Origin: an uncultured Clostridia bacterium
GTDB taxonomy: Bacteria; Bacillota; Clostridia; Christensenellales; Borkfalkiaceae
Reading direction: 5' to 3'
Assembly (NCBI GenBank): GCA_944340905.1
Contig: CALVLT010000016.1
Location: 1 to 47,413 of the forward strand
Length of the DNA stretch: 47,413 nucleotides
In this document: one piece after another, positions 1-47,413 of the stretch
Layout: every line of letters begins with the position of its first letter
Numbering within the stretch: the stretch's first letter is position 1
Made by a program: the position numbers and the translations under genes
The notes under the pieces: generated by a model
The model's database searches: none
What the model saw: only the letters and a program-made list of their open reading frames with translations
What the model was told of the DNA's origin: nothing

Positions 1-388
1 CTTGCAGAAGTATTCCGTAGCCGTGGCGCACGAGAACCGAAGGTTTGATGTAGCGCGCAGCGCGAAGTTATGACGGTTCTTCAGGCTTGTCTACGTCATT
101 CAGAGCGAAACAACTATAAATCCGCAGCACTCACAAAAAAAGCTTTGCAAGCAAATCTTTTTTGTGAAAAGGGTGAAAAGCGCGTTATGCGCATCAGCGC
201 AGTGCGCTGTGCGCGCGCTTTGAACTAAGGATTTTGCATTATCAGTGCAAAATCCGTGCCCGAAGGAGGCACTTCACCTTGGTGCCGCCAAGATGGCAGA
301 AGGTCAAGACGTGGTGTTCGGCTTTGCCGAATACCCGTGTCCACCTTCTTGCCGCGACGCGAGTCCCCTCCTACATTGTCTTACAAGC
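1..388 (+). repeat. Mosaic hairpin repeat, copy R1
   Basis: This gene-free stretch is a copy of the intergenic mosaic repeat. Bases 168-388 are nearly identical to 27505-27722. Bases 1-75 match the module at 12271-12345 and 20627-20701. It contains hairpins at 27-47, 132-166, 229-255, 277-292 and 313-335. The end near 372-388 carries the recurrent ATTGTCTTA motif. Short open frames across it are conserved only because the DNA is repeated, so no gene is called. The copy may extend left of the window. Confidence 0.85.
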
Positions 389-389
389 A

Positions 390-426
390 AAAACAGCCTT
401 CCAGAGCGGGAGGGCTGTTTTATTTT
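390..426 (-). terminator. Terminator of the cardiolipin synthase gene
   Basis: An inverted repeat (ACAGCCTTCC with GGGAGGGCTGT, one wobble pair) is flanked by T-runs on both strands. It lies about 60 bases past the cls stop on the minus strand and separates that gene from repeat R1. Confidence 0.75.
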
Positions 427-3937: not shown

Positions 3938-4020
3938 GTCCATCGGGGGACATGAAGTTCGATTATCCGAATCCATATTTTTTCTCATTAAAAGGCCGGG
4001 CGGCAACGCCCGGTCTTTTA
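3938..4020 (+). ncRNA. Candidate small RNA (about 82 nt)
   Basis: A perfect promoter and a perfect intrinsic terminator bracket about 82 bases. Inside, TTCG and CGAA arms near 3958-3972 could form a short stem. An ATG at 3952 opens a frame, but the G-run before it is only one base away, too close for a good ribosome site. That frame also runs through the terminator into repeat DNA. A non-coding RNA is therefore the better reading. No known RNA family is recognised. Confidence 0.55.
3990..4019 (+). terminator. Terminator of the candidate small RNA
   Basis: AAAAGGCCGGGCG and CGCCCGGTCTTTT arms around a GCAA tetraloop, with a T-run. This is a strong intrinsic terminator, and because of the A-run it could work in both directions. 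Confidence 0.85.
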
Positions 4021-4021
4021 A

Positions 4022-4110
4022 TCGCTCTGTGTCGTCTTAGGGGCATGAAAACGCGAGGGGATTCCTTCGTCGCCTTCGGCTCCTCTGAATGACGGTTCTT
4101 CATGCCCGTA
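4022..4110 (+). repeat. Mosaic repeat fragment
   Basis: A short fragment of the mosaic family: the GTCTTAGGGGCA motif, then GAGGGGATTCCTTCGTCG and CTGAATGACGGTTCTTC as in the copies at 11210-11345 and 61-95. The remaining bases to 4228 hold no recognisable gene. Confidence 0.7.
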
Positions 4111-4228
4111 TTGCGCACCCTCACAAAAAGCGGCGCGGCGGCATGTTGCCGCCGCGCCCTCTCCTTGTTCGTTCAGCTCAGACGGCTGCTCCGCGCCCGA
4201 TCAACCCAAATGGCTGCCGAGTGTCCGA

Positions 4229-6904: not shown

Positions 6905-6937
6905 CCTTATTCGCGTTCTCTTGCCCCTAAGACAATG
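6905..6937 (-). repeat. Mosaic repeat fragment (reverse)
   Basis: The sequence reading TTGTCTTAGGGGCAAGAGAACGC on the minus strand (6909-6934) matches the shared end motif of the mosaic repeat at 11120-11142 and 12710-12735. No other module is present here. Confidence 0.65.
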
Positions 6938-11100: not shown

Positions 11101-11710
11101 GCTGCTGACCCCTCATACCATTGTCTTAAGGGCAAGAGAACGTGGATTCCCGCCCCCCCTTAACACTTGTTTTAAGGGGGGATGGGAGGGATTATAGGTT
11201 CTGCGAGGGGATTCCTTCGTCGCGCTACGCGCTCCTACTTCGGCTTCGCCTCGTGCGCCGCTTCGCGTCGGGCGGAATGACGTAGTACCCCATGCTTGTT
11301 TCCGTCATTCAGAGCGAAGTGACGAATCCCCTTTACATTGTCTTAGGAGTTCGACACTATGCTCCCCTTGTGCAAGGGGGAGATGTCAGCATAACTGACA
11401 GAGAGGGTTGTCAAAACACGCTATAAACAAGCAACACAACCCTCCCGTCTTGCCTGCGGAAATCCACCCTCCCTAACACGGGGAGGGCTTTTTTCGCCCC
11501 CCTTAACACTTGTTTAAAGGGGGAATGGGGGGATTATAGGTTCTGCGAGGGGATTCCTTCGTCGCGCTACGCACTCCTACTTCGGCTTCGCCTCGTGCGC
11601 CGCTTCGCGTCGGGCGGAATGACGTAGTACCCCATGCTTGTTTCCGTCATTCAGAGCGAAGTGACGAATCCCCTTTACATTGTCTTACAGGCAAGAAAAC
11701 TCGATAAGCT
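11101..11710 (+). repeat. Mosaic repeats with tandem 195-bp units
   Basis: A gene-free stretch. Two nearly identical direct repeats lie at 11152-11347 and 11495-11688. Each starts with a CCCCCTTAACAC palindrome and continues with GAGGGGATTCCTTCGTCGCG. After a GC-rich middle it ends with the complementary GAAGTGACGAATCCCC and the ATTGTCTTA motif. Each unit could fold end to end into one long stem. Between them lies a different module with CCCTCCC arms (11432-11490) ending in a T-run, which resembles a terminator. Confidence 0.8.
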
Positions 11711-11751
11711 TCTTCTGAATCCCCGGACGATCGCGGGGTTTTCGTTTCCAC

Positions 11752-11954: not shown

Positions 11955-12167
11955 ATGGAACTGAAGGATATTCAAGTGCGCCTGCGTGAGTGCATTGCCG
12001 AGAGCGGGCTGCCGCAAAAAGAGATCGCAAAGCGGGTGGGCGTTTCGCCGCAGACCATCTCCAAGTATATGAAAAAGGATGTCTTTCCCGCGCTCGACAC
12101 CTTTGCAAAGCTGTGCTGCGTACTGGACGTGACGAGCGATTTCATCCTCGGGCTGAAGGGGTATTGA
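11955..12167 (+). CDS. Small XRE-family repressor
   Basis: A 70-residue single-domain helix-turn-helix protein (LPQKEIAKRVGVSPQTISKYMKKDVFPALDTFAKLCCVLDVTSDFILGLKGY), of the phage-repressor/HipB fold. There is no sensor or dimerisation domain beyond the XRE core, so it probably binds as a dimer to the palindrome 30 bases upstream. The ATG at 11955 is 6 bases after GGGAG. An ATG 4 bases earlier is in another frame. The divergent consensus promoter and the shared operator suggest it controls the small RNA as well as itself. There is no toxin partner next to it and no phage gene nearby. Confidence 0.85.
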   Translation: MELKDIQVRLRECIAESGLPQKEIAKRVGVSPQTISKYMKKDVFPALDTFAKLCCVLDVTSDFILGLKGY

Positions 12168-12175
12168 TTTCTGCG

Positions 12176-12900
12176 TCCGCACATTCTGCGGGGGGATTCT
12201 TACTGCGGCTGCGCCCTCCGCTCTGCTCGCCGCCGCAGGCGGCACACGCCCGACACGTGCAAGGAATAGCTGCTTGCAGAAGTATTCCGCAGCCGTGGCG
12301 CACAAGAGCCAAAGGCTCGATGTAGGCGCAGCCGAAGTTATGACGTTTCCCTTGCTTACCGTCATTCCGAACAGAACAAATGCGAACCCACAGCACTCGC
12401 CAAAATATTTTCCTTGAAAAGATTTTGGCGAAAAGGGTGAAAAGCGCGGTATGCGCACCAGCGCGGTGCGCTGTGCGCGCGCTTTGAACGAAGGATTTTG
12501 CATTATCAGCGCAAAATCCGTGTCCGACGCGAGGACAACATGCCCGCTTGCGGAAGCATTTGTCCGAAGCGGCGCACGAGCGCGCAGCGCGAAGTACCGC
12601 AGGCGGCGCATTCCCTTGGCGCCGCCAAGATAGCAGGCGTTTCAGGCAAGGTATTTGGCGCAGCCAAATACCTGCAAAAGGCGCCTTGCCGCGACGCAAT
12701 CCCCTCATACGTTGTCTTAGGGGCAAAAGAACGCGGTGGTTCCCGCCCCCTTAACACGCGAATGCGTGTTAAGGGGGCGGGACAGGGTGGGAGCGTGCTC
12801 CGCACAAGGGGATTCCTACGGGAACATTCGTCCCCTCTGAATGACGTTGAACCACACCCCTCCCATCTTGCCTGCGGCAATCCACCCTCCCTTACACGAT
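12176..12900 (+). repeat. Mosaic hairpin repeat, copy R2 (longest)
   Basis: A gene-free stretch made almost entirely of mosaic modules. Bases 12216-12345 match 20572-20701 almost exactly. Hairpins lie at 12307-12319, 12398-12430, 12493-12519, 12615-12630 and 12650-12672, with an outer pair GGCAAGG/CCTTGCC at 12645-12651 and 12684-12690. After the ATTGTCTTA-type end (near 12715) comes a CCCCCTTAACACGC palindrome (12746-12777). A segment at 12850-12895 matches 11427-11475. Confidence 0.85.
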
Positions 12901-12948: not shown

Positions 12949-13305
12949 ATGACCAACGAGACGATCGCAAGCTATTTTTCCTTTTTGCTCGAGAGGGGGT
13001 TCGTGTTCGAGCGCGACTACAACAAGGGCACCGATTCCACCTGCACGCAAATCTACCGTTTCAGAAAGGACGCCGCCAACTATCTGGAGTACCGCGTGCT
13101 CAGCGCGCACGAGCGCACCCTGCTGGTCTGCGTGCGCGGGGAAAAGAAGTTCCCCTCTCCCGCCAGGCGCTATGCAGGGTTCGTGCGGCGGTGGAAATGG
13201 CAGCGGCTGTTCTCCGCCGAGCGCAAAAATATCTGGCGGCTGGACGCCGACCTGTGCCGCCACGAACTGGAACAGACTGGAACCGTGTTCGGGATCGGGG
13301 TATGA
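12949..13305 (+). CDS. Conserved-looking hypothetical protein
   Basis: A 118-residue soluble protein that I do not recognise. It is rich in Arg, Glu and aromatic residues (YFSFLLERGFVFERDYNKG, RWKWQRLFSAERKNIWRLD) with no signal peptide, membrane segment or metal motif. The start is well supported: AAGGAGG lies 5 bases before the ATG and a TATAAT lies just upstream. The next gene, a flavin reductase, starts 95 bases later with its own possible -10, so a shared operon is possible but not shown. It could be a small enzyme-associated or nucleic-acid-binding protein; no function is assigned. Confidence 0.6.
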   Translation: MTNETIASYFSFLLERGFVFERDYNKGTDSTCTQIYRFRKDAANYLEYRVLSAHERTLLVCVRGEKKFPSPARRYAGFVRRWKWQRLFSAERKNIWRLDADLCRHELEQTGTVFGIGV

Positions 13306-13400
13306 GCGGAATATCGCGGCAAAACCCGCGCGATACCCTGTTTGAGCGCGCCGCCGCGCGGGTATAATCATGGCGAAGAAAGCAAGGGGAGGTATTTGTG

Positions 13401-13973
13401 ATGCTGAAAGATCTCGGAGTCAAGCCGTATACGTTCCCGATGCCCGTTCTGATGATCGCCACGTATGGCGAGGACGGCAAAGTAGACGTGATGAACATGG
13501 CGTGGGGCGGCGTCTGCGCCGAAAACATGGTCGCGCTCAACATTGACGAGGGCCACAAGACGAGCGAAAACATCAAACAGCGCGGCGCATTCACGCTGAG
13601 CATCGCCGACATTCCGCATATCAAGGAGGCGGACTTCTTCGGCATCGCCACGGGCAACAAGATGGCGGATAAGTTCGAGCGCAGCGGCCTGCACGCCGTC
13701 AGAAGTGCGCGCGTGGACGCGCCCGTCGTGGAGGAATTTCCGCTGACGCTGGAGTGCAAGGTGGTCGAATGCCAGCATACGGCATACGGGTTCCGCGTGC
13801 TCGGCGAGATCGTGGGCGTGCTTGCCGACGAAAAGGTGCTCGACGAAAAGGGCAAGGTAGTTCCCGAAAAGCTCAACGCCTTTGTGTTCGACCAGTTCCG
13901 CAGCGGCTACTATGCCTTGGGCGAAAAGGTCGGTCAGGCGTGGCAGTCGGGCGCCGAACTGATGAAAAAGTGA
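13401..13973 (+). CDS. Flavin reductase family protein (FMN-binding split barrel)
   Basis: A 190-residue protein of the flavin-reductase-like family. The N-terminus (PMPVLMIATYGEDGKVDVMNMAWGGVCAENMVALNI) and AFTLSIADIPHIKEADFFGIATGNKMADKF are typical of the FMN-binding split barrel seen in clostridial NADH:flavin or FMN-binding oxidoreductases. It likely binds FMN in the cytoplasm; electron donor and substrate are unknown. ATG at 13401 is 8 bases after GGGGAGG. A GTG directly before it (13398) is an alternative. A TATAAT at 13363-13368 may be its -10. A strong terminator follows. Confidence 0.85.
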   Translation: MLKDLGVKPYTFPMPVLMIATYGEDGKVDVMNMAWGGVCAENMVALNIDEGHKTSENIKQRGAFTLSIADIPHIKEADFFGIATGNKMADKFERSGLHAVRSARVDAPVVEEFPLTLECKVVECQHTAYGFRVLGEIVGVLADEKVLDEKGKVVPEKLNAFVFDQFRSGYYALGEKVGQAWQSGAELMKK

Positions 13974-13992: not shown

Positions 13993-14034
13993 GCGCCGCC
14001 CCGCGCAGTTATGCGCGGGGCGGCGCACTATTTT
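13993..14034 (+). terminator. Terminator of the flavin reductase gene
   Basis: GCGCCGCCCCGCGC and GCGCGGGGCGGCGC arms (14 bp) followed by ACTATTTT, directly before the next mosaic repeat. Confidence 0.85.
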
Positions 14035-14345
14035 CGCCAAAATATTTTCTTTGAAAAGATTTTGGCGAGTATTTGAGTGACGGCTAAGTATGTGCGTCAT
14101 TCCGTCCGACGCGGAGCGGCGCACGCCCGACACGCGCAAGGAATGCCTGCTTGCAGAAGTATTCCGCAGCCGTGGCGCACGAGAGCCAAAGGCTCGATGT
14201 AGGCGAAGCCGAAGTAGGGGCGCAGCCCCGCCCGATGCGAGGAAAAATACCCGCTTGCGGAAGTGTTTTGACGACGCAGCGCACAAGGCGCAGCCGCAGT
14301 AAGAATCTCCTCGGGAGCAGTCATCCCCCCTGTCCTGCGCCCCCC
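14035..14345 (+). repeat. Mosaic hairpin repeat, copy R5
   Basis: It begins with the CGCCAAAAT-type hairpin (14035-14067). It then carries the module with GAGCC-AAA-GGCTC and GGC-GAA-GCC hairpins (14150-14215), near-identical to 12271-12345. The section 14221-14320 is the reverse complement of segments at 27255-27345 and 36350-36455, so modules occur in both orientations. A remnant of the CCCCCTTAACAC palindrome ends it. Confidence 0.8.
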
Positions 14346-14369
14346 TAAAACAAGTATTAAGGGGACAAG

Positions 14370-14402
14370 AAAAAGCGCACCCCTGCGGGGTGCGCCTTTT
14401 TG
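14370..14402 (-). terminator. Terminator of the 14416-15342 lipoprotein gene
   Basis: On the minus strand GGCGCACCCC pairs with GGGGTGCGC, followed by five T residues, 15-45 bases after the stop. Confidence 0.85.
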
Positions 14403-19098: not shown

Positions 19099-19300
19099 GA
19101 TATTCCTCCCGTTAAAACGGCGCATGCGGCCAATGGTGCCGCATGCGCCGTTCGGTCTTTTTTTCGGCTGTTAGAATAGCACAATGTCCCCCCCCCGTCA
19201 AGTAAATGCATACCCATGCGGCGATTTTCTTGCAGCCGAGGCCGCCGTTCGGAATGGCGGTTGGAAAAAAGTCTTTCTTTGGAAAGACGAATGCGTGCGT

Positions 19301-20263
19301 TCAGCCCTCCGTCGGGGCGACGTACTCCCCCGTATCGGCATCCTGAAAGACCACCCAGAATCCTTCGCGTTCCGTAAAATGGGACTGCGGCACGAACACG
19401 GCATGGCCGCCCATTGCCTCGGGGGGCTGCTCCCCCTCCGCCGCGGCGGCGACGCACAGCCAGCGCGGAATGCCCTGCGCGTAGACGATGCCCAGCAGCG
19501 CCCCGCCGCGCTTCACCCATTCGGAATGCGGAAATACGGCGAGCAGGCGCTCGTCCTTCTCCCCCTGCGAAAAGGCGGCGTCCAGTTTTTCCTTCACGGA
19601 GTAGTAGTATGTAAGCGAGCCGCGCGGGCGCAGGAGTAGATCGCCCGCATCATCGGGAGCCGCCGCCCCCTTCTCCCCTTCAGCCGCAGCAGCAGCTTTT
19701 TCATCGCCATCGCCCGCGCCAGCGAAGTAGTCGCTTGCGGCGATCGCCTCGTCATCGTAGCGCGCGGCGGCGCGCCCGTCGTGTGGGGAGGACTCGGGCA
19801 GCGGTTCGGGCAGGGGAACGGTGGGCGCGAGCGGCACGTTGGGTGCGGGCGCAGGCGTCTGAACGGGCGGATTGGGCTGCGGGATGGGGCGCCGCCTTGC
19901 AGGCTCCTCCTGCAGCAGCGCCGCGTATTTTTCGGGCGCCACGCCGCAGCGGCCGTAGGCGATGGGTTCGGGTTCCCCCTTGACGAAACACAGCAATGCC
20001 GCAAAGCCCGCCGCAACGGAGGGCGCATGTTCGATATGAATGGGAGAGCCGCCCTTGAGTTCCAGACAGTACGTCTTGCCGTCCGCCCAGATGAACAGGG
20101 CATAGCGCCCGTCGCGCAGCGGAGAGAGCGCCGCAATGCGCGGCGTGATCGTCAATTCTTCGCCCAGACGCTCCGCATACACCGCCCCCGTCAGCGCGCT
20201 GCCGTCCGCCGAAAAGCCCTTGCGTACCTGCCGCAGGACACAAACCCGTTTTTCGTAAGCCAT
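19301..20263 (-). CDS. Hypothetical protein with proline-rich linker
   Basis: A 320-residue protein not recognised. The N-terminal 115 residues (MAYEKRVCVLRQVRKGF, ELTITPRIAALSPLRDGRYALFIWADGK) and the C-terminal 100 residues (LTYYYSVKEKLDAAFSQG, VFVPQSHFTEREGFWVVFQDADTGEYV) look like two small beta-rich domains. They are joined by about 100 residues of Pro/Ala/Glu-rich low-complexity sequence. There is no signal peptide or membrane segment, so it is probably cytoplasmic. The ATG at 20263 follows AGAGGTGG. The longer upstream frame lacks a ribosome site. It stands alone, with about 200 unassigned bases on the 3' side and a mosaic repeat near its 5' side. Confidence 0.55.
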   Translation of the reverse strand: MAYEKRVCVLRQVRKGFSADGSALTGAVYAERLGEELTITPRIAALSPLRDGRYALFIWADGKTYCLELKGGSPIHIEHAPSVAAGFAALLCFVKGEPEPIAYGRCGVAPEKYAALLQEEPARRRPIPQPNPPVQTPAPAPNVPLAPTVPLPEPLPESSPHDGRAAARYDDEAIAASDYFAGAGDGDEKAAAAAEGEKGAAAPDDAGDLLLRPRGSLTYYYSVKEKLDAAFSQGEKDERLLAVFPHSEWVKRGGALLGIVYAQGIPRWLCVAAAAEGEQPPEAMGGHAVFVPQSHFTEREGFWVVFQDADTGEYVAPTEG

Positions 20264-20397
20264 ATGCCACCTCTGTCTATACAGGATACGACGCCATGCG
20301 GCGCGAAACGGCACATTTTTTGCCGAACGTATGCGGATTTTGGGGAAAGTTGTTTGCAATATGTCATTTTGAAAAAAGCTTAGCGACAAAACTCCCT

Positions 20398-20702
20398 TAG
20401 GTGCAGTCATCCCCCCTGTCCTTCGCCCCCTTAAAACGCATTCGCGCGTTAAGGGGGGCGGGAAACCCGCGTTCTCTTGCCCCTAAGACGATGTACGGGG
20501 GATTCTTCGCTCCACTTCGTTCCGCTCTGAATGACGGGAACAAGCTTGAAGAACCAATGTACGGGGGATTGCTCCGCTCTGCTCGCCGCCGCAGGCGGCA
20601 CACGCCCGACACGTGCAAGGAATAGCTGCTTGCAGAAGTATTCCGCAGCCGTGGCGCACAAGAGCCAAAGGCTCGATGTAGGCGCAGCCGATGTTATGAC
20701 GT
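20398..20702 (+). repeat. Mosaic hairpin repeat, copy R6
   Basis: It fills the gap between the 19301-20263 gene and the SLOG gene. It carries the CCCCCTTAAAACGC palindrome (20428-20458), the reversed ATTGTCTTA motif (20482-20495), a GGGGATTCTTCGCTCC segment, and 130 bases (20572-20701) almost identical to 12216-12345. It ends 17 bases from the SLOG stop codon. Confidence 0.85.
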
Positions 20703-20718
20703 ATAAAAAACTCCGCGG

Positions 20719-26924: not shown

Positions 26925-27735
26925 CCTGGATCCCGTCACTCAGAGCGCAGCGAAGAGTCCCCTCATACATTGTCTTACAGGCACAAAAACGCGAACAAGC
27001 CTTCCCCCTCGGGGGTGAGCCATGCGTTATGCGCATCAGCGCAGTGCGCTGTGCGCGCATGTCGAACTGAGAAATCGCCATATCAGCGGCGATTTCGTGC
27101 CCGCCCGACGCGGAGCGGCGCACGAGCGTAGCCGAAGTAGGCGGCGCTTTCCCTTGGCGCCGCCAAGACAGGTGTCAGGCGAGCTTGCGAGCCTGACGGA
27201 TGAGGGGGAAATGCTCCCTTAACACTTTTTAAGATGACAAAGGACAGAAAGGATTGCACTCCGCGCGAGGGGATTCTTACTGCGGCTACGCCTTGTGCGC
27301 TGCGTCGTCAAAATACTTCTGCAAGCGGGTATTTTTCCTCACATCGGGCGGGACCGGCGCCCTCTGAATGACGGTTCCCTTGCTTACCGTCATAACATCG
27401 CCTCTTCGATGCTTGTGTGCCTCCTGCGGCGGCGAGCAGAGCGGAACGAAATGATAAAACCGCAGCACTCACAAAAAAGATTTGCTTGCAAAGCTTTTTT
27501 GTGAAAAGGGTGAAAAGCGCGTTATGCGCATCAGCGCAGTGCGCTGTGCGCGCGCTTTGAACTAAGGATTTTGCATTATCAGTGCAAAATCCGTGCCCGA
27601 AGGAGGCACTTTACCTTGGTGCCGCCAAGATGGCAGAAGATCAAGACGTGGTGTTCGGCTTTGCCGAATACCCGTGCCCACCTTCTTGCCGCGACGCAGA
27701 ATCCCCTCATACGTTGTCTTACGAGCAAGAGAAAG
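26925..27735 (+). repeat. Mosaic hairpin repeats, copies R3 and R4
   Basis: The densest repeat block. R3 (26930-27200) has the shared CATGCGTTATGCGCATCAGC segment, then a hairpin at 27071-27096 whose stem differs from R1/R2 but pairs perfectly, then CTTGGCGCCGCCAAG and a GTCAGGC/GCCTGAC hairpin (27174-27197). A reversed module lies at 27255-27450. R4 (27455-27735) is near-identical to R1 except that the long A/T hairpin at 27470-27503 is inverted. No real gene is seen in this block. Confidence 0.88.
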
Positions 27736-27802
27736 CGGCAGATTTTTCCTCGGGAAAAAGCGCCGCAATAGCCTTCAATCACAGCCACGGGAGGAAGAAC
27801 CT

Positions 27803-36289: not shown

Positions 36290-36342
36290 CACGTTTCCCT
36301 GTTCTATGGACCTTGAATGAGAAATAAAGGGGGGGACAAGGA

Positions 36343-36470
36343 AGGGCACATTCTGCGAGGGGATTCTTACTGCGGCGGCGCCTTGTGCGCTGCGCCGTCA
36401 AAATACTTCCGCAAGCGGGTTTTTTCCTCGCATCGGGCAGGGCTGACGCCCTCTGAATGACGTGTATCGC
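36343..36470 (-). repeat. Mosaic repeat, short copy R7
   Basis: Bases 36350-36460 match 27268-27370 in the same orientation and 14221-14320 reversed (ATTCTTACTGCGGC, TCAAAATACTTCCGCAAGCGGG, CTGAATGACG). A run of nine G residues follows (36471-36479). From 36480 to 36678 no gene is seen; A-rich stretches precede the next promoter. Confidence 0.75.
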
Positions 36471-36678
36471 GGGGGGGGGCTACGTCGTGTCAGGGGGCAG
36501 GAGGCGGGAACCGCCATTCAGGCGACAAAAAGCGGCAGAATTGTTCAAAAATACAACATATGGTAGAGGATGCGCCCTTGCGGCGCATTTTTTGTGTTGC
36601 GGAACGGTTTTTAGTGAAATCGCCCAAAAAAAGGCGAAAAAAAGATGAAGATTTCACAAAAAAATTTATAAAACCCCA

Positions 36679-36707: not shown

Positions 36708-36983
36708 AGGAGTAGTACAAGCAGTGACATCGGGGGGAAGTCATGATTGTGAGGAGCGAACGGTAAAACTTTCGCGCGCCCTTTTCGCGTCCGTGCCCGC
36801 AGGGGAACGGGGTGAAGAGCGGGGCGGAGTTTTTCCGTCGTTTTTCATTTTTTGGCGACCTTTCGGCGAAGCTGCCGTCGGGCGCTTTTTTGTACGCTTT
36901 TTGCCGTCACCCCCCAACAGGCGGCGAAAGGCGCGAACAGTCCCGGCTCCGCGTGCGAAAACTATATTAAGAGGTGTGGTTTT

Positions 36984-39878
36984 ATGAAAAAGAAAAGGTT
37001 CTGGAAGAATGCCGGCCTTGTCGCGCTCTCCACGGTGATGGTGGGCGGCGCGGCGCTGGCGTTCACAGCGTGCGGCGGCAACACCGGAAGCGATTATCAG
37101 CTTGAAGTGTACGTCTTCTGCGGCGATGCGGACGCCATGACCAACGAGACGATCTGCAACAACTGGGCGCAGAGGTACTCGCAGGAACACGCCGATGAAC
37201 TGGGCGGCAACACGGTCACGGTCAAATTTACCGCCAATCCGAGCAAGGGCGACTATTTCGATGACATCGGCGGTCAGATCTCCTCGGGCGGTTCGACGGG
37301 CAACTACCCCGACATTATCTACGTGTCGCCCTCACAGGTGCTCACCTATGCGGGCAACGGCACCATCCTCGATCTGACGGACTATATCACCGCCTCGGAG
37401 AGTGCCGTCAGCCAGGTGAACGGCATCTGGAAGGACAGCCTCTCCTTCTATGCCACGAAGGGATCGAGCCTGCTCATGAGCAACGTGGGTGAGATCGGCT
37501 ACAACGCCGAAACGAATACCTTCTACGACGCGTCGACGCAGAGCGGCACGGAGGCGTCCATCTACGGCCTGCCCAAGGACTATTCCAACTTCGGGCTGGG
37601 CTACAACCGCAACTACTTTACCGACGTCATGAAGGCGGCGTACACCACGCTCACGTCCAACGTCAGCCGCACCGTTACGTCGCGCATCTATAAGCAGAGC
37701 AATGCAGTGGCGGGCGTCACGCATACGGGCGAGGAATCGGGCGCGATCACCTATGCGGTGAGCGGCGACTACATTAATCCGTACACGGGGGAGGAGATGA
37801 CGGCGACCAAGGACCAAACCGCGCCCTTCATCAACATCGGCGTGCCTACGGCGTACAAGCCCTTCAATTTCTATCAGTATGAGACCTATGCCGACGCGCT
37901 TGCGGGCGGCGATCCGCTTGCGCTGAGCACCCAGGCATGGACGGGCGACGACGGTTATATCATCACCGTTCCCGGATTCCCCGGCGAGACGTTCAGCCTT
38001 GTGGACGATGACGGCACCGAACTTTACGCCAACTCCGTCAACGAGGACGCCGTCTACGACGCGGAGAGCGCCAACCTCGTGCTCACGTGGGCGGAGTACG
38101 GCGCGCTCAACTGGGCGTGCACGTACATGCTCAACTCCTTTGCATGGGACGGCAGCAACGGTGTGAAGAACGAGGCGAATATTCAGGCGGCGCTTGACGC
38201 GGACACGTTCAGCACAGACCTGTTCAACGATTGGGCCAACGGACATGGCGGCGTGTACGCAGGGGGCGGCTCGGGCGCTGACACCGACATCGCGGCGTTC
38301 AACAACGTGTACGGCGGCGAGCAGTACGAGCAGTCCACCGATGACGTCATGGGCGGAAACATGTATGTGCTTCCCTGGCTGTTCTCCAACGACGCGACCT
38401 TTATCGACAGCTCTTACACCAAGTCCCTGAACGAGACGAGGAACGGCAAGCCGATCGCTTCGGCATCCGGGTCGACGTGGAGCTGGGCAAGCGGCACAAG
38501 CGACAGCGACGTCTATTCGCGCGTCGGCAATGCCACGGAGAACGTTTTCAAGACCAACCTCGACGGCACCGAGCGCACGGCAAAGGTGCAGTACGGCATC
38601 AACAGCGAAAACTTTATCGAGACGTACGGCGCCTTCCAGGAATATATCGCCACGTGGAACGCTCACGTCGGACAGGCGGGCGACGTTGCAAGCTCCAGTT
38701 CGGATAAATCCGTCAACGGTCAGGCGGTGTTCGTCATGGGCGCCAGCCTGTTCTACGGCGTCGGTTCGTGGGACGTCTCCGAATATCAGGAAGTGGACCG
38801 CGACACCCTCGACCTCGGCATCATGCCCACGGCGGTCTCCGATAAACTCGCACTCTATTCGGAGGTGCGCAGCCCCTATTATCTGGACAGCAGCACTTTT
38901 CCCCTTGTGGTCACCTATGCCAACGCCAACAACCCTAAGGGCTCGGGCGACGGCGCGGGCACGGCAACCGTCGATGAGGACGGAACGTATTCGGGCGACT
39001 ATGCACAGCTCTCCGACCCGAGCACGGTGATCAGCACGAACAAGATCTTCGCGCAGGAAGATATCCTGAAAAATCAGGTGCTGCGCCAGGATAAGTGGGC
39101 GGGCAGAATGGACTCCGTCGGCTATGCCGTCAATGGTCATCTTGCCGACGAAGGGCAGCCCGACTGGCTTGCGGCGGCGGCGGTCGACCTCGTCATGGAA
39201 CTCACCGTCGGCGAGCAGGCGCAGATCACGCTGACCTACGGCGGCGCGCAGATCCCCAACGTGATGGAGCAGTGCGAGGAGTACCTCAACTACAACGAGG
39301 AGGGTTACGAGAACGGCGCCTTTGCCGACATGATCACGCCCGAGGACGAAGAGTGGGACGAATACTACGACCTGGCGCTGGAAATGGCTGCCGCCAGCAG
39401 GGCGGGCAACACGAGCACGGTCGCGGATTATCTGAACGGCAAACAGATCGGAGGCGAGGACGTGCGCTACGACACGCAGTATGCCAATGTCCCGCTTTCC
39501 GAGTTCACGGAGGCGACTTCCGTGCAGACGAAGATCGCCTATGCGATGCGCGTGCTGCGCATGATCAACTACACCCGTGCCGAGCGCGACATCCTCATCC
39601 GCATGCAGACGGGTATGAACGCGGTGCGCGATCAGACGCTCTACACCCCGGGCACCACGTGGATGAGCACGCTCAACGCCACGGCCTCCCCCAACAACTT
39701 CCTTGCTTACAGAAATCAGGCATCGTTCGACAGCGACTCCGGTGAAATTTATCTGCCCGATATGATCGCTTACAGTACAGCCGTATTCGGGCAGAGCGGC
39801 AGAACGATCTATACGCCCGCCGTCTATGCGGTGGCAACGGCGCTGCGTTCGCAGAACTACCTGTCGGCGGGACAGTAA
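36984..39878 (+). CDS. Very large ABC-transporter solute-binding lipoprotein
   Basis: A 964-residue extracellular solute-binding protein. The signal peptide ends in LAFTAC and is followed by GGNTGSD. The N-terminal part (LEVYVFCGDADAMTN, NTVTVKFTANPSKGDYFDDIGGQISSGG, PDIIYVSPSQVLTYAGNGTILDLTDY) is typical of carbohydrate-binding cluster 1 proteins, which are usually 400-550 residues. Here the fold is expanded by long inserts. It should capture oligosaccharides and pass them to the two downstream permeases. GAGGTG precedes the ATG by 7 bases; longer upstream frames are rejected. A stable hairpin after the gene may raise its mRNA relative to the permeases. Confidence 0.88.
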   Translation: MKKKRFWKNAGLVALSTVMVGGAALAFTACGGNTGSDYQLEVYVFCGDADAMTNETICNNWAQRYSQEHADELGGNTVTVKFTANPSKGDYFDDIGGQISSGGSTGNYPDIIYVSPSQVLTYAGNGTILDLTDYITASESAVSQVNGIWKDSLSFYATKGSSLLMSNVGEIGYNAETNTFYDASTQSGTEASIYGLPKDYSNFGLGYNRNYFTDVMKAAYTTLTSNVSRTVTSRIYKQSNAVAGVTHTGEESGAITYAVSGDYINPYTGEEMTATKDQTAPFINIGVPTAYKPFNFYQYETYADALAGGDPLALSTQAWTGDDGYIITVPGFPGETFSLVDDDGTELYANSVNEDAVYDAESANLVLTWAEYGALNWACTYMLNSFAWDGSNGVKNEANIQAALDADTFSTDLFNDWANGHGGVYAGGGSGADTDIAAFNNVYGGEQYEQSTDDVMGGNMYVLPWLFSNDATFIDSSYTKSLNETRNGKPIASASGSTWSWASGTSDSDVYSRVGNATENVFKTNLDGTERTAKVQYGINSENFIETYGAFQEYIATWNAHVGQAGDVASSSSDKSVNGQAVFVMGASLFYGVGSWDVSEYQEVDRDTLDLGIMPTAVSDKLALYSEVRSPYYLDSSTFPLVVTYANANNPKGSGDGAGTATVDEDGTYSGDYAQLSDPSTVISTNKIFAQEDILKNQVLRQDKWAGRMDSVGYAVNGHLADEGQPDWLAAAAVDLVMELTVGEQAQITLTYGGAQIPNVMEQCEEYLNYNEEGYENGAFADMITPEDEEWDEYYDLALEMAAASRAGNTSTVADYLNGKQIGGEDVRYDTQYANVPLSEFTEATSVQTKIAYAMRVLRMINYTRAERDILIRMQTGMNAVRDQTLYTPGTTWMSTLNATASPNNFLAYRNQASFDSDSGEIYLPDMIAYSTAVFGQSGRTIYTPAVYAVATALRSQNYLSAGQ

Positions 39879-42327: not shown

Positions 42328-42417
42328 ATTCGTTTGGGGCGCCTTCCGCCTTTGGTCGGCGGGGGAGGGCGCGCAGCAATCAGCCGATTCAATATTTATA
42401 TGGGGAGATATTTCAGC

Positions 42418-43980
42418 ATGAAAAAGAGATGGCTTTGTCTTTCGCTCGCCGCGACGCTTGCGCTCTCGGCGGGGCTGCTGGGGGCATGCACCCCGCAGGA
42501 ACAAGATCCGGATGACGACAACAACAACGGAACGTCCACCGAATACGTTCTGCCCACGTGGCAGACCGTTCCGGAGAGCTGGGATTCCAAGGAGAACAGG
42601 GCGTCCGTGCACGATCCGTCCATCTTCTATGACGAGGCGAGCGAAACCTACTACGCCTTCGGCACGCACTATGCCGTAGCGTCCTCCAAGGACCTCATGG
42701 CATGGGAGCAGGTTGCGGACGACGGGGAATTCAGCGACCTGTACGGCTCCGCCGTCTACAAATATCAGGGGCAGTATGAGTGGCCCGCCGCGCTCGAGGC
42801 TACGCTCGATTTGGTGTCGCCCACGGCGGAAGGCGGCGGGATCGCAACCACCACATGGGCGCCCGACGTCGAATATTATAACGGCAAGTACTATATGTAC
42901 TATTCGCTCACAAAATATTTCGGCGCCAGCCACTCGGCGATCGGCAGGGTGGAATCGGACAGCGTGCTCGGCCCCTACACCAACAACACGCTCATCGTCA
43001 ACAGCGTCGGCGACAGTTCCGTTCACCCCAACTGCATCGACCCCGAACTGTTTTATGATGAAGAGGGCAAGCTTTGGATGGTGTACGGCTCCGCCTCGGA
43101 CGGCATCTATATCAAGGAACTGCACAATTCGGGCGACAACTGGGGACTTCCCATTGACGACGGCGAACATGCCTACGGCACCAAGCTGTGGTCTGGCACC
43201 AAGAATCAGGAAGGCCCGTTCATCTTCTACAATGAGGAGACGAACTACTATTATCTGATGGTCAGCTACGGCGATCTGAACAAGTCCTACAACATGCGCG
43301 TGGCGCGCAGTGAAAATCCCGACGGTCCCTATGTGGACATCACGGGAACGGACGTGGCGACCGCCACGGGGGACAACGGCGGCAACAAGATCGCGGGCAA
43401 CTATATCATGGGCGACGACGCGGACGGCTATGCCGCCCTCGGGCACAACTCCGTCATCGAGGTGGACGGCGAGTACTTCGTCGTTGCGCACGTCCGCCGC
43501 GAGGAAGGCAACGGTGTTTCGGGCATGCACAACCTCTATGTGTTCCAGCTCTTCTTCAATGAGGACGGCTGGCCCGTCATGAGTCCGGAGCGCTACGCGG
43601 GCGAAAAACTGGGCACCGGCATCACGCAGGAAAAGCTCGCGGGCGAATACAACGTCGTCGAGCACACCGTCGGAACGACGGAAGCGTTTGCGCAGTCCGT
43701 CGCCTACACCTTCGGCGCGGACGGCACGATTACGGACGGGGACGGCGCGGACGCCGGCAGCTGGGAGCTGAGGGACGGCAGGTACGTCACCATCACGCTG
43801 GGCAGCGGCGAAGATGCCGTTGCCTACGAGGGCGTTGCCGCGCCCGCCTATGAGAGCATGTATGTCAGCCGCGAATGGGCCATGCATCCCGCATTCGTGT
43901 TCACGGCGGTCTCCGCCGAGGGGCGCAGTCTGTGGGCGGTGGGCACGTTCGAGGCGCAAGCGGCAGACACGGCGGCCTGA
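42418..43980 (+). CDS. Secreted GH43 lipoprotein, probable endo-arabinanase
   Basis: A 520-residue predicted lipoprotein: the signal ends in LLGAC. The five-bladed propeller of glycoside hydrolase family 43 is shown by HDPSIFYD (catalytic base Asp), CIDPELFYDEEGKLWMVYGS (pKa-modulating Asp) and QEGPFIFYNEE (acid Glu); GHNSVIE provides the calcium-binding His. A C-terminal beta-domain of about 120 residues resembles that of Bacillus Abn2. It should cut alpha-1,5-arabinan outside the cell into oligomers for the adjacent transporter. Exact linkage preference is inferred. GGGGAG precedes the start by 10 bases. Confidence 0.88.
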   Translation: MKKRWLCLSLAATLALSAGLLGACTPQEQDPDDDNNNGTSTEYVLPTWQTVPESWDSKENRASVHDPSIFYDEASETYYAFGTHYAVASSKDLMAWEQVADDGEFSDLYGSAVYKYQGQYEWPAALEATLDLVSPTAEGGGIATTTWAPDVEYYNGKYYMYYSLTKYFGASHSAIGRVESDSVLGPYTNNTLIVNSVGDSSVHPNCIDPELFYDEEGKLWMVYGSASDGIYIKELHNSGDNWGLPIDDGEHAYGTKLWSGTKNQEGPFIFYNEETNYYYLMVSYGDLNKSYNMRVARSENPDGPYVDITGTDVATATGDNGGNKIAGNYIMGDDADGYAALGHNSVIEVDGEYFVVAHVRREEGNGVSGMHNLYVFQLFFNEDGWPVMSPERYAGEKLGTGITQEKLAGEYNVVEHTVGTTEAFAQSVAYTFGADGTITDGDGADAGSWELRDGRYVTITLGSGEDAVAYEGVAAPAYESMYVSREWAMHPAFVFTAVSAEGRSLWAVGTFEAQAADTAA

Positions 43981-43993
43981 ATTTTGCAATGAA

Positions 43994-44020
43994 AGAGGGC
44001 GGGCGCACAGTCCGCCCTCT
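43994..44020 (+). promoter_or_regulatory. Hairpin between the two GH43 genes
   Basis: AGAGGGCGG and CCGCCCTCT arms (9 bp) with a 9-base loop, no T-run. The third hairpin at a junction of this operon. Confidence 0.65.
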
Positions 44021-44046
44021 TGGTATCTGAGAGAGGGAATGAAAAA

Positions 44047-45552
44047 ATGGCGATCCGATATCCCAAAAATCCGAGATTCAACCGGCTTGCAATGCGCTCG
44101 CCCGACTATACCGCCTGGCAGGAGGGCTGCGCGCACGATCCCTCGCTGCTCGAGTGGGAGGGGAAGTACTACGCCTATTCGACGGACACCTTCGGTGCGC
44201 CGAACGGCTATCAGATCCGCGTCAGCGACGATCTGCTGCACTGGGAATATGCGGGCAGCGCGTTCGCGCTCGAGGGCGCCGCGCCCTTCTACAAGAAGGG
44301 GGAGGCGGGAGCGGAGCACGGCAACCTGCAGGCGGCGTATGACTGGTGCGTCACCGACCGCCGCGAAGTGGGCTACGGCATCTGTGCAGGAAAGGACGGC
44401 AGCATGTCCTTCTGGGCGCCCCACTGCGTGCGCGGCACGGACGGCAAATTCTGGCTGTACTTCTGCCTGACGGGGTATTTCGGCGGCTCCAAGTCCTGCA
44501 TCGGGCTTGCCAAGGCGTCAGGTCCGCTCGGGCCGTTCGTCTGCGAGGGGCTGATCGTGCAGTCCCCCGCTGGCTGGCGCACGCCCAACGCCATCGATCC
44601 GCAGGTGCTCTTTGCCGAAGGCAGGCTGTGGCTCGTGTACGGTTCGTACGGGCTGGGGCTGTACCTCATCGAACTCGACCCCGCCACGGGGCTGCGCCGC
44701 GACGGGCTGGGCTATGCCGACTTCGCCGCGGGCAGGGCGGCCTTTGCGGATTACTATGGCACGCAGCTTGCGAGCGGCTCGCTCGAGGGCGGCGTTCTGC
44801 ACTATGAAAGAGACGTGCCCGTCCTCGAGAACGGGAAGTGGACCAAAAAGCGCTACTACTATCTCATGTGCTCGTTCGGCTCGCTCTCCTCGGCGTACAA
44901 CATGCGCTGCGCGCGCAGCGAAACGCCGCAGGGGCCGTATACGGACGTCAACGGCAATCCCGTGGTCTGCTCCACCGACATCGGTACGGGCAACAAGATG
45001 CTCGGGTCTTTTTGCTGGGAGAACGACCCCGTGGACGACTTCTGCCCCGGGCACAACGATATGTTCACCACGTCGCAGGGGGTACGGCTCATCGCCTATC
45101 ACTGCCGCACCAATTATTTCATCGAAAAAAAGCTCTCGCGCTCCAACAACTTCCACTATCTCTATCTGGGGCAGTACGATTTCAATTCGGACGGCTGGCC
45201 CGTGATGAACGCCAACCGCTATGCGGGGGAGGAGCTCCAGGACGTCACGCCGGACGAGCTGCTCAACATTACGGCGGGCAAGTTTGAGGCGGTGGTGTTC
45301 CGTCAGGGGGTGGAAACGCTGAAGGCGCAGCGCGTCGTTCTGCGGGGAGACGGCACCATGGACGGCGCTTACAGGGGCAGCTGGAAGATGTACGGCGCGC
45401 GCTATATCTCCATCGAGACGCAGGGGGATGAATTCCTCGGGGTCGTCATGCCCGCGTGGATCGAGCACCAGGGCGCTGCGGGCCTGAGCGTCGCGGCAAT
45501 GGGGCGGCGCAGCGGCATGGCGCTCATCATGAACAGCACCAACCTGATCTGA
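44047..45552 (+). CDS. Cytoplasmic-type GH43 arabinanase/arabinosidase
   Basis: A 501-residue GH43 enzyme without signal peptide, so it probably acts on imported arabino-oligosaccharides. Seen: CAHDPSLLEWEGKYYAYSTD (catalytic base Asp), AIDPQVLFAEGRLWLVYGSYG (second Asp), SLEGGVLHYERD (candidate acid Glu, with G where many relatives have P), and GHNDMF (metal-site His). A C-terminal beta-domain like that of the previous gene is present. The start at 44047 follows GAGAGGG. An ATG 8 bases earlier is in another frame. It is the last gene of the operon. Confidence 0.87.
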   Translation: MAIRYPKNPRFNRLAMRSPDYTAWQEGCAHDPSLLEWEGKYYAYSTDTFGAPNGYQIRVSDDLLHWEYAGSAFALEGAAPFYKKGEAGAEHGNLQAAYDWCVTDRREVGYGICAGKDGSMSFWAPHCVRGTDGKFWLYFCLTGYFGGSKSCIGLAKASGPLGPFVCEGLIVQSPAGWRTPNAIDPQVLFAEGRLWLVYGSYGLGLYLIELDPATGLRRDGLGYADFAAGRAAFADYYGTQLASGSLEGGVLHYERDVPVLENGKWTKKRYYYLMCSFGSLSSAYNMRCARSETPQGPYTDVNGNPVVCSTDIGTGNKMLGSFCWENDPVDDFCPGHNDMFTTSQGVRLIAYHCRTNYFIEKKLSRSNNFHYLYLGQYDFNSDGWPVMNANRYAGEELQDVTPDELLNITAGKFEAVVFRQGVETLKAQRVVLRGDGTMDGAYRGSWKMYGARYISIETQGDEFLGVVMPAWIEHQGAAGLSVAAMGRRSGMALIMNSTNLI

Positions 45553-45654: not shown

Positions 45655-45892
45655 AAGCAGATAAATCAGCCCTCCCTTACACAGGGAGGGTTTTCTCGCC
45701 CCCCTTAACACTTGTTTTAAGGGGGGATGTCCGAAGGACAGGGGGGATTCTGCATTTTGCGAGGGGATTCCTTCGTCGCGGCTGCGCCACTCCTCGGAAT
45801 GACGATCCCTTTGATTACTGTCATTCCGAACGGAGCGAAAACATAATTCCATCGCACTCGCCAAAATCTTTTCTTTGAAAAGATTTTGGCAA
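45655..45892 (+). repeat. Mosaic hairpin repeat, copy R8
   Basis: It contains a CCCTCCCTTACACAGGGAGGG terminator-like palindrome (45671-45691) and the CCCCCTTAACACTTG palindrome (45701-45727). The GAGGGGATTCCTTCGTCG segment follows, then the CGCCAAAATCTTTTC hairpin (45859-45890), here with perfect arms. No gene is present. Confidence 0.8.
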
Positions 45893-45930
45893 AAAAAATT
45901 GCGCCGCCGTGCCATTTGCACGGCGGCGCG
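45883..45930 (-). terminator. Terminator of the 83-residue membrane protein gene
   Basis: GCGCCGCCGTGC and GCACGGCGGCGC arms. On the minus strand they are followed by AATTTTTTTT. Confidence 0.9.
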
Positions 45931-47053: not shown

Positions 47054-47413
47054 AAACTCAAGAGTTTGATTCTGGCTCAGGATGAACGCTGGCGGCGTGC
47101 TTAACACATGCAAGTCGAACGGACGTGAGGAGCTTGCTCCTTACGTTAGTGGCGGACGGGTGAGTAACGCGTGAGCAATCTGCCCATATCTGGGGAATAA
47201 CAGTTAGAAATGACTGCTAATACCGCATAAGACCACGAGGAGGCATCTCCATGGGGTAAAAGATTTTATCGGATATGGATGAGCTCGCGTCCCATTAGGC
47301 AGTTGGCGGGGTAACGGCCCACCAAACCGACGATGGGTAGCCGACCTGAGAGGGTGATCGGCCACATTGGAACTGAGACACGGTCCAAACTCCTACGGGA
47401 GGCAGCAGTGGGG
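47054..47413 (+). rRNA. rrs: 16S ribosomal RNA (5' part, cut by window end)
   Basis: The first 360 bases of 16S rRNA: AGAGTTTGATTCTGGCTCAG (47061-47080), GATGAACGCTGGCGGCGTGC, the GGCGGACGGGTGAGTAACGCG segment by its core GACGGGTGAGTAA, and the ACTCCTACGGGAGGCAGCAG region at the end. The exact 5' end is set by analogy with E. coli, about 7 bases before AGAGTTTGAT. The gene runs off the window. The classic primer 27F site has T instead of C at one position. Confidence 0.97.

Follow-up and report, generated by a model that had tools for sequence, protein, structure and literature searches.

The window, by which we mean the whole 47,413-nt stretch of DNA that was analyzed, is contig 16 of a metagenome-assembled genome (MAG) of 1.85 Mb that is 84% complete. 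Between its genes lie ten mosaic repeat blocks. The blocks, together with the modules and genes that are needed to follow the analysis, are located as follows (a strand is given for modules and genes; the blocks carry none).

1..392: repeat block from the contig end, with part of a 75-nt module (1-53), Q and R hairpins, M121 and a TAAGAC box
171..294, + strand: M121 in the linker of the Q and R hairpins (module RQ)
4016..4115: short block made of a TAAGAC box and one REP-like hairpin
6905..6937: lone TAAGAC box, reading CGCGTTCTCTTGCCCCTAAGACAATG on the + strand; one short box makes up the whole locus
11101..11715: block R1, with TAAGAC boxes, two near-identical 175-nt REP-dimer units (60 nt between arms) and a CTCCC-type element
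11955..12167, + strand: gene C (HTH_3 regulator), between R1 and R2
12176..12900: block R2, with REP-like hairpins, the 75-nt module, Q and R hairpins, an interrupted M121 and a TAAGAC box
12435..12631, + strand: M121 in R2, interrupted by a 69-nt hairpin module (about 12525-12596)
12949..13973, + strand: segment B, a small ORF (12949-13305) without a Pfam match and a flavin reductase-like gene (13398-13973), between R2 and R3
14031..14373: block R3, with a Q hairpin, the 75-nt module, a related slot hairpin and a CCCCCCTTAA-type hairpin
20398..20705: repeat block with a CCCCTTAA-type hairpin, a TAAGAC box, REP-like hairpins and part of the 75-nt module
26925..27745: longest block, with two M121 copies, Q and R hairpins and REP-like hairpins
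27013..27169, + strand: M121 with a short CGACGCGGAGCGGCGCACGAG-type hairpin inserted
27508..27631, + strand: M121 in a Q-R hairpin linker
36340..36475: one REP-like hairpin with 88 nt between its arms
45655..45895: repeat block with a CTCCC hairpin, a CCCCCCTTAA-type hairpin, REP-like hairpins and a Q hairpin

According to Pfam, the gene order around block R2 is D (DeoR regulator)-R1-C (HTH_3)-R2-B (small ORF and flavin reductase)-R3-E-A (PEPCK). The MAG probably belongs to a Gallimonas-like organism. For the product of gene 13398-13973 the nearest relatives are proteins of Candidatus Gallimonas, Ornithoclostridium and Clostridia MAGs, with close ones in distant taxa too, and a Candidatus Gallimonas contig (L053) is syntenic with this region of the window. 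Elsewhere the window contains two neighboring GH43 glycoside hydrolase genes (42334-43980 and 44020-45552; PF04616 with GH43_C), an ORF of 1008 amino acids (36852-39878) with no Pfam match at E ≤ 0.001 and, at the contig end, the start of a 16S rRNA gene (47054-47413).

The ten intergenic blocks total 3,714 nt, or 7.8% of the window, in agreement with the ten loci and about 8% reported in a preliminary description of this DNA, whose block ends we adjusted slightly. The same description held that the blocks share modules in varying order and in both orientations, and the comparison of the window with itself confirms this for the hairpin modules common to the ten blocks; examples are modules of 126-131 nt at 79-99% identity and inverted pairs at 76-100%. 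The repeats are not limited to the window, as had been considered, but extend far beyond it. The 725-nt center (12176-12900) has 117 matches in its own genome at E ≤ 0.001, far above chance, and the 34 stretches that we fetched from the same MAG around these matches contain more mosaic repeats. When the window and these 34 stretches were all compared with one another, the repeats fell into sharply bounded blocks that sum to 21,294 nt.

That no locus lies in a confident gene is true for most of the blocks. With a simple codon-usage gene call, 38 of the 46 merged blocks overlap called ORFs by 30 nt or less; six of the remaining eight touch the start side of an ORF, an overlap affected by the use of the first possible start in the gene caller, and two lie within low-scoring ORFs. 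The short ORFs that overlap the blocks are the one observation in favor of decayed copies of a single protein-coding transposon, a possibility that had been raised beforehand and that we consider exceedingly improbable, since the nine ORFs overlapping the window blocks have no Pfam match at E ≤ 0.1, the longest end pair of the inverted-repeat MITE presented below spans 509 nt among the matches listed, and the copies of module M121 retain their structure.

The comparison of 20 blocks revealed a common grammar. After a TAAGAC box (CGCGTTCTCTTGCCCCTAAGACAATGTA) come a REP-like hairpin GGGGATTC..GAATGACG, a spacer of ~20 nt, an inverted REP-like hairpin CGTCATTC..GAATCCCC and a hairpin CCCCCCTTAA..TTAAGGGGGG; many blocks are framed by a head-to-head pair of REP-like hairpins. 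A regular expression (GGGGAYTC..GARTGACG) run on the window and the 34 fetched stretches identified 59 REP-like hairpins, with CGTC at the unpaired end and then AT in the stem. CGTCAY is found 45 nt or less past the tag in 34 of them (both partners of a dimer may be counted) and TAAGAC upstream in 25. Between the arms lie 52 different stretches with lengths from 13 to 146 nt, and by length only, 12 hairpins have 13-14 nt between 4-bp arms while 47 have 18-146 nt. This variation exists because extra hairpins sit inside: the long REP-like hairpins resemble short ones plus inner hairpins, and the three longest contain RQ. The other parts of the blocks include CTCCC..GGGAG hairpin elements with TGTC..GAC and GGAGT arms and the 75-nt module, which among the matches listed is present or absent with zero-base junctions in many pairs; further whole modules of about 121, 69 and 57 nt are also gained or lost among these matches.

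Several known systems bear comparison with this arrangement. The likeness of GGGGATTC..GAATGAC segments to intergenic repeats of other bacteria, noted early on, is apt, and the closest resemblance is to the CGTC-tagged REPs (Di Nocera 2013; PMC3733652). The part of that paper used here describes intergenic repeats with a CGTC tag beside complementary AT, a stem of 8-9 bp, a loop of 4-5 nt and a tail that is mostly CCA, which form tag-to-tag dimers, lie mostly in co-directional and convergent gaps and have no known dedicated transposase; it lists five phyla, Firmicutes not included. Our REP-like hairpins share the CGTC tag, the AT at the start of the stem and the predominance of head-to-head dimers, and like the CGTC REPs they are intergenic, occur mostly in co-directional and convergent gaps and have no known dedicated transposase. 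They differ in that their tail is CCCC and not mostly CCA, as seen in blocks read side by side (the regular expression demands CCCC, and the count of 59 is thus no test of the tail), and in that their inner stretches are mostly longer (47 of 59) and often hold further hairpins; the 13-14 nt of the other 12 are of a length that would suit the stem and loop of the CGTC REPs. Because of the tail and the mostly longer inner stretches we have not filed them as CGTC REPs.

The REPINs are inverted REP doublets that, in the sections of Bertels and Rainey (2011; PMC3116915) on which we rely, constitute the replicative unit of the REPIN/RAYT system and form a hairpin in single-stranded DNA or mRNA. Inverted REP doublets are present here too but, unlike REPINs, contain secondary cassettes, and unlike the REPIN/RAYT system no Y1 transposase (Y1_Tnp, PF01797) was found in this 84%-complete genome. 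The family is present in 15 of 61 genus genomes. In none of the four Y1 loci of relatives that we viewed did we find GGGGATTC or its complement GAATCCCC; two have one lone GTCATTC, located inside the gene (L015) or about 1 kb away (L017). These loci (L015-L018) contain IS200-type Y1 transposase genes without REP-like pairs around them. A RAYT as the mobilizer was rejected, given the lack of PF01797 matches in the 84%-complete source genome and of such REPs flanking the Y1 genes in the four loci viewed. A reverse transcriptase or a DDE_3 transposase that tracks the repeats was rejected by the distribution of these families, RVT_1 being found in 24 of the 103 genus genomes and absent from the source genome, and DDE_3 in none of the 103. 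None of the three transposase or reverse transcriptase families tested accounts for the spread of the repeats.

The BOX, RUP and SPRITE repeats of pneumococcus (PMC3049150), in the portion of that work considered here, are modular composites with predicted RNA folds that occur in clusters, insert into one another and are enriched in convergent gaps; sequence HMMs served there to search for the BOX modules. The present blocks work as composite repeats in the same way. Unlike BOX, module M121 keeps its fold genus-wide with changing letters and is common to different carriers. The preliminary description had not recognized the ordered architecture, and indeed we found no description of the present repeat system in open-license papers, nor, among the papers listed there, any title or abstract opening on repeats of this sort for the motif GTCATTCTGAG, nor any paper for the peptide CHSERSEESH; composite repeats as such, like BOX, are nevertheless a known kind. 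The new part is a structure-defined cassette common to different carriers.

M121 is a module of about 122 nt that starts with GGGTGA or alike, ends with CAAGAC or CGAGAC, forms four helices and has no evident inverted ends. An alignment of 17 copies from the source genome (MAFFT, RNAalifold) gave 32 pairs, 22 of them with at least one double compensatory change; 97.2% of the cells pair, and the covariation is 0.535 versus 0.202 in shuffled and at most 0.149 in slid alignments. Alignment A2 contains 35 matches, 34 of them distinct, from one locus in each of 30 genomes; one match is from the source genome, and the rest are from 29 other genomes. It was fitted to the covariance model and built from well-scoring matches, using 30 of the 40 loci that the genus and family searches had brought. 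Across its 34 distinct copies 96.1% of the cells are paired, 29 of the 32 pairs have double changes and the covariation is 0.654, versus 0.163 shuffled and at most 0.129 slid. The letters of the linkers between helices are conserved genus-wide while the stem letters change. At least one module, M121, is a conserved structure, which may act as RNA or as single-stranded DNA. Folding energy is a poorer guide: the median z is -1.93 in the blocks (31% of 49 tiles below -3), -0.15 in coding DNA (3% of 79 tiles) and -1.73 in other intergenic DNA (17% of 18 tiles), and we rejected plain folding energy as a proof of structure because it separates the blocks from coding DNA and not clearly from other intergenic DNA. 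The early impression that almost every module is a hairpin is thus confirmed by covariation for M121, while the folding energy of the blocks stands out less against other intergenic DNA. A known Rfam RNA as the identity of the modules was also rejected, with no gathering-score match over them: at gathering score the window matched only SSU rRNA, and six repeat-bearing loci searched at E ≤ 1 gave eight matches, none at gathering score. A match resembling a T-box leader (L024:2320-2536, - strand) adjoins a repeat block; at 79.6 bits it falls short of the gathering score, which is 93.

Selection is not needed for matching arms if a mutational process uses one arm as the template for the other, as in template switching or quasi-palindrome correction. 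The REP-like hairpins would suit such a process, as they are near-perfect inverted repeats whose letters, including the 52 distinct inner stretches, differ by locus. Arm copying alone, however, would not keep four helices in register or place M121 in several carriers, and it does not fit linker letters that are conserved while the stems change, so we regard a purely mutational origin as quite improbable.

The covariance model of M121 was used for the search of related genomes that had been suggested as a check, and it found matches in 82 of the 103 genus genomes at E ≤ 0.01. Eighteen genus genomes have at least 20 copies and five, this genome included, at least 34. In a sample of the family, M121 was found in 37 of 251 genomes and in 3 of 18 genera, with six of the 37 genomes outside this genus; in a sample of the class it was found in 2 of 291 genomes, both members of this genus. 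Collections of phages, plasmids and viral contigs gave no match to the 725-nt query or to one exact 24-base M121 pattern.

The deep covariation of M121 would equally be expected if the transcribed hairpins served the cell, in 3' end protection, transcription termination or regulation, and their spread were incidental. G-U pairs in M121 exceed A-C mismatches on the reading strand by 67 to 9 cells, or by 36 to 9 once a G-U pair that hardly varies is left out. This is a hint that a single strand is read, although the comparison by distinct column types (14 to 7, p=0.19) is not significant. The location of the blocks points the same way. The 37 blocks with both neighbors called lie in 26 co-directional, nine convergent and two divergent gaps, compared with 51, one and seven, respectively, for gaps without repeats, an enrichment in convergent gaps versus the rest with a Fisher p=0.0007. 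M121 copies in co-directional gaps are 12 sense and five antisense (29 copies examined), a small difference. On the other hand, tolerated parasites also show convergent-gap enrichment, both orientations of M121 occur even within a single block (L035), 21 of the 103 genus genomes have no M121 match at E ≤ 0.01 and the sites of the repeats are mostly not common to species. A structured RNA useful to the host is, in our judgment, a rather unlikely explanation of the whole.

M121 was found in four settings: the CTCCC-hairpin element, the RQ linker, a CCCC element and an inverted-repeat MITE. In all four it stands right after GG and replaces two to four bases, and empty versions also exist. The copies of the source genome mostly follow a CTCCC..GAGGG hairpin or lie in the Q-R linker of RQ, with three in other places (L023, the second of L032, and L044). 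The CTCCC element reads GAGGG-AG-GTG when empty and GAGGG-TGA..AAGAC-GGTG when filled. The RQ linker reads GAAAAGG-AGCG-GC when empty (seven loci) and GAAAAGG-GTGA..AAGATG-GCAG when filled, so that two to four bases of AGCG are replaced, depending on the alignment of the ends. In the relative G046, M121 lies in a CCCC..AGGGG element of which an empty copy is present in the same locus (L195), and the two forms read AGGG-TCGC..GAGAC-AGTCC and AGGG-GA-AGTCC. The MITE junction is GACGCGG-CG-AAGTCC when empty (L240, L249) and GACGCGG-TGAG..GAGAA-AAGTCC when filled (L245). The bases replaced after GG are two each in the MITE (CG), the CTCCC element (AG) and the element of G046 (GA).

The MITE is a short element with inverted ends TACTGTAAGGGARNAATACGAAC. 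Five M121 copies of the relative G070 lie in elements of this type. The element also occurs without M121 at L221, L222 and L223, and the M121 model matches nothing there. Its end pattern, with one mismatch allowed, is present in 16 of the 103 genomes, this one among them, and the element is frequent in some relatives. The MITE of the source genome (G000:C2:4599-5099, in L245) holds M121 and RQ; its M121 occupies the site that M121 has in G070, and the MITE of G018 at L240 is empty there, with matching neighbors. Among the matches listed, the distance between paired ends is usually 275-285, 385-395 or 490-509 nt; other distances are 137 and 229 nt in G018 and 60-61 nt in G062 and G059. The number of cassettes does not simply follow from the length of a MITE, as is shown by the elements of L013 (388 nt), which has RQ and no M121, and L230 (285 nt), which has RQ and is without a middle stretch. 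The ends carry TA on both sides, a candidate target duplication, but this TA is demanded by the regular expression and may belong to the inverted repeat. RQ is carried by the REP-like hairpins of the source genome and by the MITEs of G070 and of the source genome; its copies in these REP-like hairpins align with those in the G070 MITEs and partly with the one in the MITE of the source genome. RQ is a second module that crosses carriers.

This MITE, as found in G070 and the source genome, is like bacterial inverted-repeat MITEs in being short and in having inverted ends; unlike ordinary MITEs, it has optional hairpin cassettes at fixed sites and is found in a genus of which 103 genomes have no DDE_3 match. 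Since each type of carrier has its likeness among known non-autonomous elements (REP dimers, inverted-repeat MITEs), the blocks could be ordinary nested MITE and REP insertions, the mosaic order being due to serial insertion and to recombination between copies. This would leave unexplained that M121 has no evident inverted ends, that it stands after GG in four different settings and that it covaries in 29 of 32 pairs, and we judge it unlikely.

The relatives compared at the sites of the blocks are other species and not sister strains, and for this reason the intergenic ends cannot be aligned base by base; the repeat library comes from the source genome, so diverged repeats may be missed in the relatives. 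Within these bounds, most of the relatives examined have the same gene neighbors without repeats. The interval from D to A has no library repeat in 13 of 15 distinct loci of relatives and a repeat of its own in two, L135 and L138 (L056 and L134 look like one contig and were counted once; L141 is without D). The 4.0-kb site has none in all five loci spanning it (L142-L146), the 26.9-27.7-kb site in seven of eight relatives (L257 has its own repeat) and the 36.3-kb site in four of five informative relatives (L252 has its own repeat).

The D-to-A interval also differs from the relatives in orientation. Relative to D and A, segment B is opposite to all 10 distinct relatives where B aligns and gene C to all four distinct relatives having C; in the window B and C are each flipped singly, and the ends of the flips coincide with repeat blocks. 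Inverted matches are present between R1 and R2 (32 nt at 91%) and between R2 and R3 (40 nt at 88% and 38 nt at 84%). These common inverted stretches make recombination between the blocks plausible, and from the sequences it is a fair guess that such recombination flipped B and C. Direct matches between the blocks are longer than the inverted ones (46 nt at 91% and 110 nt at 92%), and the two inversions can also be misassemblies of the MAG at repeats. That inversions require repeats was rejected: a gene matching window positions 19300-20410 is inverted in G067 (L253:83-1016), in a locus with no library repeat.

Three readings had been offered for these repeats, namely mobile elements, structured RNAs and substrates of a repeat-maintaining process, and the first two gain support, mobility from the relatives without repeats and from the modules that are in or out at one site, and the second from the conserved structure of M121. 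The modules are repeated, they are present or absent at one site per carrier, and both the conservation of structure and the independence from the carrier are observed. We consider it probable, though well short of certain, that the blocks are nested, non-autonomous mobile repeats with exchangeable, structure-defined cassettes. The carriers (REP-like pairs, CTCCC-hairpin elements and the inverted-repeat MITE) would insert between genes, mostly downstream of genes, and the secondary cassettes, above all M121 and RQ, would go into the carriers. What would define M121 is its fold, together with a few letters in the linkers, rather than the letters of its stems, and the module would enter linkers or loops just after GG, replacing two to four bases. 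A putative enzyme acting in trans may recognize the hairpin shape, on RNA or on single-stranded DNA, and with such recognition of shape the stems would drift freely while pairing is kept. Repeated insertion of cassette into cassette would then build the ordered strings of hairpins. The direction is presumably insertion and not loss, because only empty copies have a complete CTCCC stem.

A more specific version of these nested mobile repeats is put forward tentatively, as a possibility that we rate below even. M121 and RQ may be second-order mobile, structure-defined RNA or single-stranded DNA cassettes that have neither inverted ends nor coding capacity. By means of the putative enzyme they would enter the linkers of quite different non-autonomous elements (M121 also that of RQ) just after GG, and they would persist genus-wide because only the fold is recognized.

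Mosaic intergenic repeats have long been known, and this genus of 103 genomes bears on the origin and movement of their modules. It offers dozens of copies in many genomes, filled as well as empty carriers and a measurable covariation, so that the rules of insertion, the exchange between carriers and the demand for structure are directly testable. The blocks may shape gene order, as two inverted segments of the window end at blocks. The fold of M121 is retained as its sequence varies, and in this respect M121 is a genomic hitchhiker of an unusual sort; should the cassettes really move by way of their fold, they would count as mobile entities in their own right.
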